A stretch of DNA of 64,000 bases, from positions 62,001 through 126,000 of the forward strand of contig JAIMBD010000001.1 of assembly GCA_023511625.1 (NCBI GenBank), read 5' to 3'. Every line of letters begins with the position of its first letter. Positions within the stretch are counted from its first letter, which is position 1. A program made the position numbers and the translations under genes. The notes below the pieces were generated by a model. The model was not told the DNA's origin and searched no databases. It was given only the letters and a program-made list of their open reading frames with translations. Positions 29,053 to 33,412 of this stretch are shown piece by piece. This DNA is from Bacillota bacterium (GTDB lineage Bacteria; Bacillota; Sulfobacillia; Sulfobacillales; Sulfobacillaceae).

Positions 29053-30135
29053 ATGACCGCCCGGTACGCCCGCTGGCTGGGATTCCTGCTCGTCGCCCTG
29101 GGGCTAGCGGCGCTTGCCGCGCCCCTGGGCGTGCGCGCGTGGGCCGCGTGGCAACAGCGCCGGCTTGTGAACGCGGCGCAACCACTGCCACCGCTTTCAC
29201 CACCCGATCCGGCGTCGGCCGCCCCCGTACCTGCTCCCGCCACGCCGGCGCCGGCCTTAGGGGCGGTGGTGGCTCGACTGGAAATTCCGGTCCTGAAGTT
29301 GTCGGCTGTGGTGGTCGCCGGGACCAATGAGGCGCTTCTCGCGGCAGCCCCCGGCTGGGTGACCACGACTGCGCTTCCCGGCCAGGCTGGCACGGCCGTA
29401 ATCGCTGCCCACAACGCCACCTTCTTCCGCCATCTGGACCGACTGCGCCCCGGCGACACCATCGCCGTGGCCACGGCGCAGGGAGCCTTCCGCTTTCAGG
29501 TGACGGGAAGCCGGATCGTGCGGGCGGGGGCACCGTTGCGCAACACCGTGCGCCCGAGCTTGGCCTTGGAGGCGTGTTATCCACTCGACGCCTTGTATCT
29601 GACCCCTTGGCGGTACGTGGTCACGGCCCGCCTGGTGCAAAGCCGCTTGACATCGACAGTCCTGCCGGGCCTTCCCGGGTCAGGGCCGTATGCTGCCGCG
29701 ATCCCCCCGGCGGTCGCCCAGCGCTTTGACCTCTCTCTGAATGATAACCCCATGCTCATGGGCACCCTGCGATACCAGGGCGGCCAAAGCCACGCCTTGG
29801 CCTTTGAGGAGTCTTCCACGGCCTACACTGTCATCGCCCAGGCCTTGCGCCTGTTCTTCGCCGCCAACCACTTGTCGGCGGTTCGCGACCTCGCGGCGTG
29901 GCGAGCCATGACCCCTCCCGGCACGGCCTTGCCGCCGTATTGGGGATTTCTCCCCAAGACGGCAGGACCCGCCAATGTGACCGTGACGTTGGACAAGGAG
30001 GGACGACCTTTAGCCGTGTCGCTGAAGGTGCACGGCGTCACCTGGAACGGCGGCCCGCCCCAAACGGTGGCCGTCACCGTCTCCGTGCGCGGCCACCGCC
30101 TGGAACTGGCCTCCATCACGACCGCCTCGGCTTAG
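29053..30135 (+). CDS. Sortase (class D/E-like) with a C-terminal extension
   Basis: A 360-residue protein with an N-terminal membrane anchor ([18 protein letters not shown]) and a proline/alanine linker. The sortase domain (about 75-200) has the catalytic His in IAAHNATFF, Cys in [10 protein letters not shown] and Arg in LTPWRYVV. It should cut the sorting signal of the preceding protein and join it to the cell wall. About 150 residues after the sortase domain are unusual for the family and have no recognised domain. It ends convergently, overlapping the ilvD stop by a few bases. Confidence 0.87.
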
Positions 30136-31814
30136 GCCCACCCTTGTGGATCGTCGCGCAAGACCGCGCCGGTGTCGGCCGAGGTCACAAACCAGCTGTA
30201 ACGCCGCAACCACCCGCTGCGGATGCGGGGGGAAAACGGCTGAAGCGCCCCGCGGCGCCGCTCGAGCTCGGCCGCATCGACCAAAAGGTCGATCCGATGG
30301 GCCTCGAGGTCGATGCGGATGGGATCGCCGTCTTGCACCAAGGCGATGGGCCCGCCGGCCGCCGCCTCCGGCGAGACGTGCCCGACGCAGAATCCCCGAG
30401 TTCCGCCGGAAAACCGGCCGTCTGTCACCAAGGCCACGTCCTGGCCGCGGCCCATCCCCATCAAAAGTGAGGTCGGCGATAGCATTTCCGGCATGCCGGG
30501 CCCGCCCTTCGGCCCCTCGTAACGGATGACCACCACCGAGCCTGGCGCGATCCCCTTCCGGATGCCTTCCAACGCCGCCGCCTCGGAATCGAACACGCGG
30601 GCCGGCCCCTCGTGGACGGTACGCCCGCCTTCAATGGCCGCCGTTTTGATCACCGCCCCCTTTGGAGCCAGCGACCCGAAGAGGACCGCCAGGCCCCCGT
30701 CTTTCCGGTGCGGGTTTTCCAGCGGGCGGATGACCTCGCGGTCGGTAGCCGTGCGCCCGGCATAGTAGGTGGCGAAGGGCTCGCCGGTGACCGTAGGCCG
30801 ATCGGGATGCAAGAGTCCAGGGATGCGGCCAAGTTCAGCCAAGATGGCCGGGATTCCCCCAGCGCGGTCCACATCCTCCATGTGCCACGCCGAGGCCGGC
30901 GAGACCTTGCACAGATGCGGGACCCGAGCTGCGATGGCATTGATGCGTTCGAGCGGAAAGTCCAATCCCGCCTCGTGGATCAGGGCCAAGGTGTGCAGGA
31001 TGGTGTTGGTCGAGCCACCCATGGCCATGTCCAGTGCCAGGGCATCAGCAATGGCGTCTTCGGTGACGATGTCGCGCATGGTGACGCCGCGCCGCACCAA
31101 ATCCACCACCACGCTGCCCACCCGGCGGAAGAGTTCTTCGCGGCGGGGATCGGTGGCCAGAATCGACCCATTACCGGGCAGAGCCACTCCCAACGCCTCT
31201 GACAGGCAGTTCATGGAGTTGGCAGTGAACATACCTGAACACGAGCCGCAGCTCGGGCAGGCCACGCGTTCGATCCGCTCCAACGTAGCGGTGGTCATGG
31301 TGCCGGCCTCCACGGCCCCCACGCCCTCGAATACAGAGATCAGGTCGACCGCCCGCCCGTCCTCCAGCCTCCCAGCGGCCATGGGTCCGCCGGAGACGAA
31401 CACCGTGGGGATGTTGACCCGCAGTGCTCCCATCAACATCCCTGGCACGATCTTGTCGCAGTTGGGAATGCAGACCAACCCGTCAAAGGCGTGGGCCGTC
31501 ACCATGGTCTCGATGCTGTCGGCGATGAGTTCCCGGCTCGGTAGGGAGTACCGCATGCCGAGATGCCCCATGGCAATGCCGTCGTCGACGCCAATGGTAT
31601 TAAATTCAAAGGGCACGCCCCCAGCGGCACGAATGGCCTCTGCCACGATTCGCCCGACGCGGGCGAGGTGGGTGTGACCCGGGATGATTTCCACAAAGGA
31701 GTTGGCGATCGCGATAAACGGTTTGCCAAAATCCTCGTCCCGCACTCCCGTTGCCCGCAACAACGCGCGGTGGGGCGCGCGGTCCAGCCCCCGCTTAATA
31801 AGGTCGCTGCGCAT
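30132..31814 (-). CDS. ilvD: Dihydroxy-acid dehydratase
   Basis: A 560-residue Fe-S enzyme that dehydrates 2,3-dihydroxy-isovalerate and 2,3-dihydroxy-3-methylvalerate in valine, leucine and isoleucine synthesis. Cluster cysteines are in [12 protein letters not shown] and [18 protein letters not shown]; the C-terminal [23 protein letters not shown] is diagnostic. The length is standard. The ATG at 31812-31814 follows AAGGGCGG. It stands alone, without other ilv genes nearby. The leader contains a hairpin at 31874-31902 but no T-box consensus that I can see. Confidence 0.95.
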
Positions 31815-32022: not shown

Positions 32023-32814
32023 ATGGAGCGCCGACCGCTTTTAGCCGTCGATGTGGTCCCGGTGGAGCTCTGGTACGAGGGGCCAACCCTCCTCGTCGCT
32101 CGAAAACCGGCTGGGATGCGGCTTTACCCAGAACACGCCGGGGCACGGGGGACGTTGATCAACGCCTTGCTGCAGGCCAATCGGTGGCTTGCGGAGATGG
32201 AGACCAGCGTGGCCCCGGGCGTGATCTACCCCCTTCGTCCCCAGGATGCCGGGTTGGTGCTGGTGGCCAAAACCGAAGGGGCGGCATCGGCCCTGAAGGA
32301 GGCATACCGCCAAGCCCGACTTCGTTTTCGCTACCGCATCCGCACCGACCGCCCCGATCCCCCGCCGCCGGCCGTCACCGTGTTCGACCACAAACCGTAC
32401 GGCGATACCTGGCTGTGGGACGCCGAGAGCGCCGTCGGGGACCCGGCCCAGCTGGCGGAAGCCTGGTGGGGCGATGGTGCAGCCGGAGAGTTTTTCTGCT
32501 ACCGCCTTGAGCTGGCCCCGGATCTTGCCCCCGAGCGCCCTGAAGGCTTGACGGTGGGCTTAGGCGACCCGGTGCCGCTGCCGGACCTCGAGCTGTACAC
32601 GGCGCCCACCTGAAGCGTCTGCAACGGCACGAAAGAGTTTCTTTCGTCGTATGGATTTGGTTACCGCGACCATTCGCTGGTCGATCCCGAAGCCGCCGCG
32701 ACGGCCAAGCGTCTTGCCCAAGGCCGGCGCGGCATCCCCGTGATCGCGCTCAACGGCGAGATCTTGATCGGATTTGACCGCCGGGCCCTGAAGGCCAGGC
32801 TTGGCCTATCCTAA
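32023..32814 (+). CDS. Selenoprotein fusion: degenerate RluA-type pseudouridine synthase-like domain plus selenocysteine glutaredoxin (USVC)
   Basis: 263 residues with TGA as codon 197 (32611-32613). Residues 1-180 resemble RluA pseudouridine synthases (LLVARKPAGMRLYPEHAG, then GVIYPLRPQDAGLVLVAKTE). The catalytic HRLD aspartate is replaced (YPLR), so isomerase activity is unlikely. Residues 190-263 are a complete glutaredoxin: LELYTAPT-U-SVCNGTKEFL, the cis-proline in RRGIPVIALNGE, and IGFDRRALKARLG. The TGA falls on the first redox cysteine. A perfect hairpin follows at +16 to +34. The ATG at 32023 follows AAGG; an in-frame GTG at 31969 lacks a ribosome site. I know of no described fusion of this kind. 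Confidence 0.85.
32629..32647 (+). promoter_or_regulatory. Candidate SECIS element of the fusion gene
   Basis: ACGAAAGA-GUU-UCUUUCGU is a perfect 8-bp stem with a GUU loop at +24 to +26 after the UGA, the same geometry as in the UGPC glutaredoxin gene, although the stem sequences differ. Such conserved shape with different bases is what SelB recognition predicts. Confidence 0.75.
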
Positions 32815-32828
32815 ACAAGGCTCCCCGC

Positions 32829-33266
32829 TCAGGTGAGCGAGTCGGAAGCCAGCGCGACGGCCACGCCGCGCAGGGTGTCGCGCACCGGACAGACCGATTC
32901 GGCCCGCGCCACGAGGGCATCGACGGCCTCCCGGGGCGCCGGTGAGTCGACCTCGATGCGCACGCGGACGGCCTGCAACCCGGGTCGTCCGCCCGCCTCG
33001 GGGCGCATCATGGCCTCGGGATCGAGATCGCCCTCCACATGCACTTGGACCCCACGGACCTCGACCCCGAACCGCGGTGCCAAGCTGATCACCACGATGG
33101 TCAGGCAGCTGCCCAACGCCGTCAAGAGGTATTCGATAGGCGTCGGTCCTCGGTCATCGCCCCCCATCGCCACTGGTTCGTCCACCACCAGGCGATGGCC
33201 GCGTACTGTGGCTTCCACGGTAGTCTTTTGCCCCGTCCAGCGCACGTCCGCGGTACATGTCATCAT
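32829..33266 (-). CDS. OsmC/Ohr family peroxiredoxin-like protein
   Basis: A 145-residue OsmC-fold protein. The two redox cysteines are in LLTALGSCLTIVV and AESVCPVRDTLRG. The family reduces organic hydroperoxides with thiol or lipoyl donors, in the cytoplasm. Both active positions are cysteine, unlike its selenocysteine neighbour. The ATG at 33264-33266 follows GAAGGGAG. It is convergent with the Sec fusion gene, with 14 bases between the stops. Confidence 0.88.
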   Translation of the reverse strand: MMTCTADVRWTGQKTTVEATVRGHRLVVDEPVAMGGDDRGPTPIEYLLTALGSCLTIVVISLAPRFGVEVRGVQVHVEGDLDPEAMMRPEAGGRPGLQAVRVRIEVDSPAPREAVDALVARAESVCPVRDTLRGVAVALASDSLT

Positions 33267-33412
33267 GGCAGTCGCTCCCTTCTTGCGGCCTGCTCCTGCC
33301 TGTCCTGCTGGACGCGGGACGGAGAAGGCCATGGGATGATACCGAGTCGAGCATTACGATAGGGGATCCGGCCCATTTCGGCAAGGGATAGGCTGCGGCC
33401 CCACCCCTCTGC

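Follow-up and report, generated by a model that had tools for sequence, protein, structure and literature searches.

The window, by which we mean the whole analysed stretch of DNA of 64,000 nucleotides, carries a reading frame on the forward strand that runs from 32023 to 32814 with a TGA at codon 197 (32611-32613) as its sole in-frame stop, and closes with TAA. With the TGA read as selenocysteine (Sec), the frame is predicted to encode a fusion of a degenerate domain of the RluA type of pseudouridine synthases (pseudo-RluA) and a glutaredoxin domain. The following features were assigned at the locus:

30132-31814, minus strand: ilvD, neighbour of the fusion gene in the window
32023..32814, plus strand: predicted gene of the fusion selenoprotein, with 263 codons before the TAA and the TGA read as Sec (open frame, homologues, selection)
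32023..32580, plus strand: pseudo-RluA domain, residues 1-186 (TIGR00005 in 27/27; Foldseek to RluD; acidic in 27/27)
32227..32238, plus strand: former HRLD motif, here YPLR, residues 69-72 (alignment columns 69-72)
32587..32811, plus strand: glutaredoxin domain with UxxC site, residues 189-263 (PF00462; PDB cGrx1 7c10 by sequence and fold)
32611..32613, plus strand: predicted Sec codon TGA, residue 197 (TGA in 21, TGC in 6 of 27 homologues)
32629..32647, plus strand: SECIS-like hairpin ACGAAAGA-GTT-TCTTTCGT (pairing, compensatory changes, third-codon entropy drop)
32829-33332, minus strand: OsmC-like gene, neighbour, convergent with the fusion gene

For the identification of homologues, a main sample of 61 genomes centred on that of the window was searched. 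The search revealed 26 full-length homologous places, 20 of which contain exactly one internal TGA and 6 none. The homologues with cysteine have an uninterrupted open frame across both domains. Purifying selection acts on both sides of the TGA, and dN/dS is below 0.3 for the part located 3' of it. Homologues that end at the position of the TGA with nothing after it were not found among these places, nor were the two domains carried as separate genes. A scan of species genomes likewise detected no stand-alone pseudo-RluA domain among 24 loci, all of which (24/24) are full length. As judged from these comparisons, the gene is real and its product would be one chain of a degenerate RluA fold and a selenium redox domain, which is conserved in Sulfobacillus-type bacteria. 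That both domains form a single chain is virtually certain. The fusion, together with the exchange of TGA and Cys codons, the hairpin and the selection, is by the same comparisons far in excess of what chance would give.

The N-terminal part of the window protein matches the RluA model TIGR00005 (E=4.2e-7) and shows a weak match, under the cut-off, to PseudoU_synth_2 (E=0.011). Among the aligned members, TIGR00005 matches 27 of 27 at E<=0.001, below its full-length cut-off (best E=2.3e-15), and PseudoU_synth_2 matches 26 of 27. The whole protein was predicted by AlphaFold2 with a pLDDT of 94.3 and a pTM of 0.89, the N domain alone with 94.7 and 0.89. When the N domain was compared with the PDB by Foldseek, the top 16 matches were all RluA-type pseudouridine synthases and their human relatives, with RluD as the best one (E=6.4e-9, query TM 0.69). 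Genuine RluA proteins can be aligned by profile over the first ~115 residues, at an identity of 24-36%, and for the second half of the domain the alignment to RluA by sequence alone is insignificant. The RluA core is shortened in the segment that joins its two halves (186 vs about 230 residues). Some of the RluA motifs are retained, namely KP, GxxH and GL. At the column of the catalytic aspartate of HRLD, the 27 members have R (9), M (7), A (6), H (3), E (1) and D (1), so that Asp is replaced in 26 of them, including the window protein. Motif III (GRTHQIR) appears as G(D/N)TxxLR, at a place where the sequence alignment is not significant. The sole member with an aspartate at the catalytic column, which is aligned to window residue 72, is that of Terrihalobacillus insolitus (L044), where the motif reads HVFD.

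All 27 members have an acidic N domain, with a net charge of -2 to -14 and a pI of 4.5-6.1, calculated from the composition and not from a surface. In 38 genuine RluA-family domains, taken from relatives and from other genomes, the median pI is 9.4 and the median net charge +5.5, with one domain below zero. The genuine RluA domains of the same family and the same genome also differ in this way from the acidic pseudo-RluA domain. Its best-conserved positions are W17-Y18-E19, K28-P29, N53-RWLA-x-ME60, S62 and D75-x-G77. Since the invariant segments N53-RWLA-x-ME60 and D75-x-G77 adjoin and fall inside the former catalytic motif, the cleft appears to be repurposed. The source genome encodes two PF00849 proteins, of which one has both HRLD and GRTHQIR in intact form, and the fusion is therefore not its last-resort pseudouridine synthase. 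Pseudouridylation by the fusion protein is very improbable on this sequence evidence, and the old RluA fold is probably reused for something besides RNA modification.

In the C-terminal part, residues 190-246 match the Pfam model Glutaredoxin (PF00462) with E=1.6e-7 and 31.8 bits, above the cut-off of 22.9, and the model matches 27 of 27 members. The C/UxxC site and the proline preceding the substrate strand are invariant (U197, C200, P239), and PDB cGrx1 7c10 matches the domain both in sequence and in fold. Disulfide-type redox chemistry is therefore a likely prediction for this domain, as the family assignment suggests. A preliminary description of this DNA had proposed that a degenerate RluA-like domain, in which the catalytic aspartate of HRLD is gone, is joined to a complete glutaredoxin whose first active-site residue is encoded by TGA. 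This picture holds: both profiles match in 27/27 members, HRLD has become YPLR in the window protein and its aspartate is lost in 26/27, the N domain also models as an RluA-type fold, and the glutaredoxin spans 75 residues with the UxxC site. Because 27/27 aligned homologues match TIGR00005 and Glutaredoxin, the assignment of the domains is independent of the window sequence alone. The same description had called for a search for Cys at the Sec position in an equal fusion, and six homologues with TGC in one open frame were found.

Among the 27 aligned full-length homologues, codon 197 is TGA in 21 and TGC in the other 6, and parsimony on the protein tree requires at least 3 switches between the two codons. 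In the rows with TGA, a hairpin of eight pairs with a loop that is usually GUU begins 15 bases 3' of the TGA. Its cells are paired to 94% in the TGA rows vs 65% in the TGC rows, and at two of its pairs both sides are altered with retained pairing. In 19 TGA rows, the third-codon entropy goes down to 0.3 bits at codons +6, +8, +10 and +11 and amounts to 1.9 at codon +12. Conserved in the TGA rows and decayed in the Cys rows, the hairpin is by its comparative signature SECIS-like. The case for it rests on this comparison; the folding energy of the single window sequence gave no signal (z=+1.03, uninformative), and a search for an Rfam family returned no credible match. At locus L013, the hairpin is shifted one base upstream and several pairs are changed, with the GUU loop retained.

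SelA, SelB, SelD and tRNA-Sec were all detected above their cut-offs in the source genome, where SelD has an in-frame TGA of its own. SelB and tRNA-Sec are also present in both Bacilli genomes that carry the fusion. A Sec formate dehydrogenase has been reported in Sulfobacillus genomes (PMC4378227) and a Sec peroxiredoxin in S. thermotolerans (PMC7409299). Sec insertion at TGA 32611 is strongly inferred, and nearly certain, because of the exchange of TGA and TGC, the hairpin, the Sec machinery and the purifying selection on both parts. Two genomes (G018 with L005, G021 with L004) speak against it: they contain the TGA form and a strong SelB, but no tRNA-Sec exceeded the cut-off of Rfam, also when the search was small, which suggests that it is absent from the assembly or divergent. 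Another glutaredoxin-like frame, which stands alone and contains a single in-frame TGA, lies on the plus strand of the same genome as the window (G000:C3:60367-60585, in L102), approximately 1.4 kb to the left of it; similar frames occur in many relatives.

The 26 full-length places are distributed over 23 genomes, namely 22 of the 34 genomes of the window's family and one genome (G041) of another family of the same order. The window's family includes named Sulfobacillus loci, from S. benefaciens, S. thermotolerans and S. harzensis; of these, S. harzensis (L016/L035) has the Sec form and S. thermotolerans (L020/L042) a natural Cys form. Remote copies with 33-34% identity, both with TGA, were found in Bacillus pinisoli and Terrihalobacillus insolitus. 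At the cut-offs used, samples of 398 genomes of the phylum and 399 genomes of the Terrihalobacillus class yielded no additional lineage with a full-length copy. An origin from phages or plasmids was discarded, as plasmid, phage and IMG/VR records contain no full-length match. The copy of G041 (L003, G041:C3:29504-30286) is 58% identical to the window copy vs 57% for that of a congener, and its own family is otherwise without the fusion; this suggests transfer or assembly contamination (7% contamination is listed). In one further genome, a second copy of the fusion (G030:C203:325-936) matches in two pieces with a gap and is possibly decayed or internally deleted.

The gene context of the fusion varies by clade, and no neighbour or operon is common to the whole family. 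In one clade, a flavoprotein resembling CoA-disulfide reductase is encoded directly upstream at seven loci; it reaches 413 bits, under the CoA-disulfide reductase cut-off of 578.8, and has a single-Cys YSxC motif. At three of these seven loci it is preceded by an MFS transporter. A second subgroup has cytochrome oxidase genes downstream on the opposite strand, and a third one a cation efflux gene upstream of the fusion at three loci. For part of the family, this context speaks for thiol redox; beyond that it allows no decision. At seven loci of one subgroup (L030:6816-7136 and six more), the fusion is immediately followed by the gene of a conserved protein of ~106 residues, for which no Pfam or NCBIfam match was obtained. 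With 87.4 bits, the OsmC-like neighbour in the window (32829-33332) stays under the cut-off of 95 for NF041052, 'OsmC-related (seleno)protein'; it has Cys and no TGA.

Taken as a whole, the locus is best explained by a selenol disulfide reductase in which the dead RluA fold serves the recognition of a partner protein or a ligand, a reading that we consider fairly probable from the sequences. SelB and tRNA-Sec, steered by the hairpin 15 bases downstream, would put Sec at TGA 32611. By analogy to its family, the resulting Sec-x-x-Cys glutaredoxin would reduce disulfides or thiol-mixed disulfides, with the selenolate attacking and the second Cys resolving. The N domain, apparently derived from an RluA-type pseudouridine synthase with loss of the catalytic Asp and of the positive charge, may bind the protein partner or ligand by the old fold and hand it to the selenol. 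That it recognises such a partner or ligand instead of RNA is itself a reasonably probable assumption, which is based solely on conservation and charge, as no neighbour is common to the whole family.

RNA binding by the fusion is possible, yet disfavoured. The RNA-guided redox chemistry considered in the preliminary description is not borne out, the pseudo-RluA domain being acidic throughout the family, unlike genuine RluA domains; the scaffold role named there is close to the favoured reading. A redox enzyme docked to RNA or the ribosome, in which the dead RluA domain binds rRNA or tRNA and gives the selenol access to ribosomal proteins or to nucleotides in thiolated or oxidised form, would fit the RluA fold and the retained motifs KP, GxxH and GL. 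It is unlikely in view of the net charge (-2 to -14 in 27/27 vs a median of +5.5 in 38 genuine domains) and of the shortened stretch between the core halves. A dead RNA-modification enzyme as a docking module, which directs the selenol to ribosome or RNA and acts there on ribosomal proteins or modified nucleotides, seems slightly less likely still. Improbable as well is a carrier of metal, metalloid or selenium, with Hg, As or Se bound by the selenol and the Cys, and a transporter or enzyme as the docking site of the N domain. In its favour, the organism names point to an acidic metal-rich origin for many members, a cation efflux gene lies upstream at three loci, and metal binding was suggested for UXX-star selenoproteins in a 2026 review (PMC13188914). 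However, the metal context is confined to few loci, and the UxxC site, the cis-Pro region and the overall domain are those of an ordinary dithiol glutaredoxin.

The N domain could also be a still-active pseudouridine synthase that uses another residue, for instance in view of D75, which is invariant three residues downstream of the catalytic column, or of the Asp of L044 at the column itself. This is highly improbable, as all other members have R, M, A, H or E at the column, motif III seems to be changed, the domain is acidic and the genome contains two PF00849 proteins, one with both motifs intact. Reading the TGA as a true stop would leave a truncated pseudouridine-synthase-like protein and an untranslated glutaredoxin remnant. 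The standard-code reading does terminate there, as the preliminary description had said of automatic annotation, and the fusion is easily overlooked for this reason. A true stop was nevertheless discarded, as an extremely improbable reading, in view of the six TGC homologues that read through both domains, the dN/dS of <0.3 after the TGA, the hairpin and the Sec machinery. The selenol disulfide reductase with partner recognition by the old fold is the reading that we prefer.

Several known systems resemble parts of the fusion protein. RluA-family synthases (TIGR00005; RluD, PDB 11wx, 1prz, 2i82) are alike in the fold of the N domain and in the first ~115 residues, whereas the fusion protein is without the catalytic Asp in 26/27 members, apparently altered in motif III, acidic, shorter and joined to a glutaredoxin. 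Sec and Cys glutaredoxins (PF00462; cGrx1 7c10; the YruB family TIGR02196) share the C-terminal domain with its UxxC/CxxC site. An inventory from May 2026 (PMC13188914), which covers 119 families of prokaryotic selenoproteins, lists the Sec glutaredoxins, the UXX-star families and the HUGP/GUXX-star fusion. The Sec glutaredoxins known so far are entered as stand-alone domains, whereas the C-terminal domain here is preceded by a second domain in the same chain. The UXX-star families (NF041212, NF041211) are alike in the glutaredoxin-like fold and in Sec at the first active-site position but are small single-domain proteins, and the fusion stays below their cut-offs (39.3 of 66 and 30.9 of 100 bits, respectively). 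The HUGP/GUXX-star fusion (NF045501), listed with two Sec residues (PMC13188914), likewise has a C-terminal glutaredoxin-like selenodomain behind an N-terminal domain of similar length. However, the fusion protein scores only 25.1 bits to its model (cut-off 325), in the glutaredoxin part only, and the N-terminal domains do not match. Fusions of glutaredoxin-like selenodomains are already known, and the RluA-type partner appears to be new.

A pseudouridine synthase fusion is absent from the inventory of 119 families, the text of which does not contain the word 'pseudouridine synthase' (PMC13188914), and no model of NCBIfam release 20.0 covers the whole fusion. No paper on it was found in the open-access literature, a search that leaves most subscription papers and preprints outside. 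The earlier statement that no described example is known agrees with these three sources. The fusion represents an additional selenoprotein family, the domain combination of which was not found described. Its RNA-modification fold is without catalytic residue and positive charge, yet under purifying selection beside a redox domain, and the repurposing of a pseudouridine synthase is therefore directly testable. The natural Sec and Cys forms are matched pairs for the question of the benefit of selenium.
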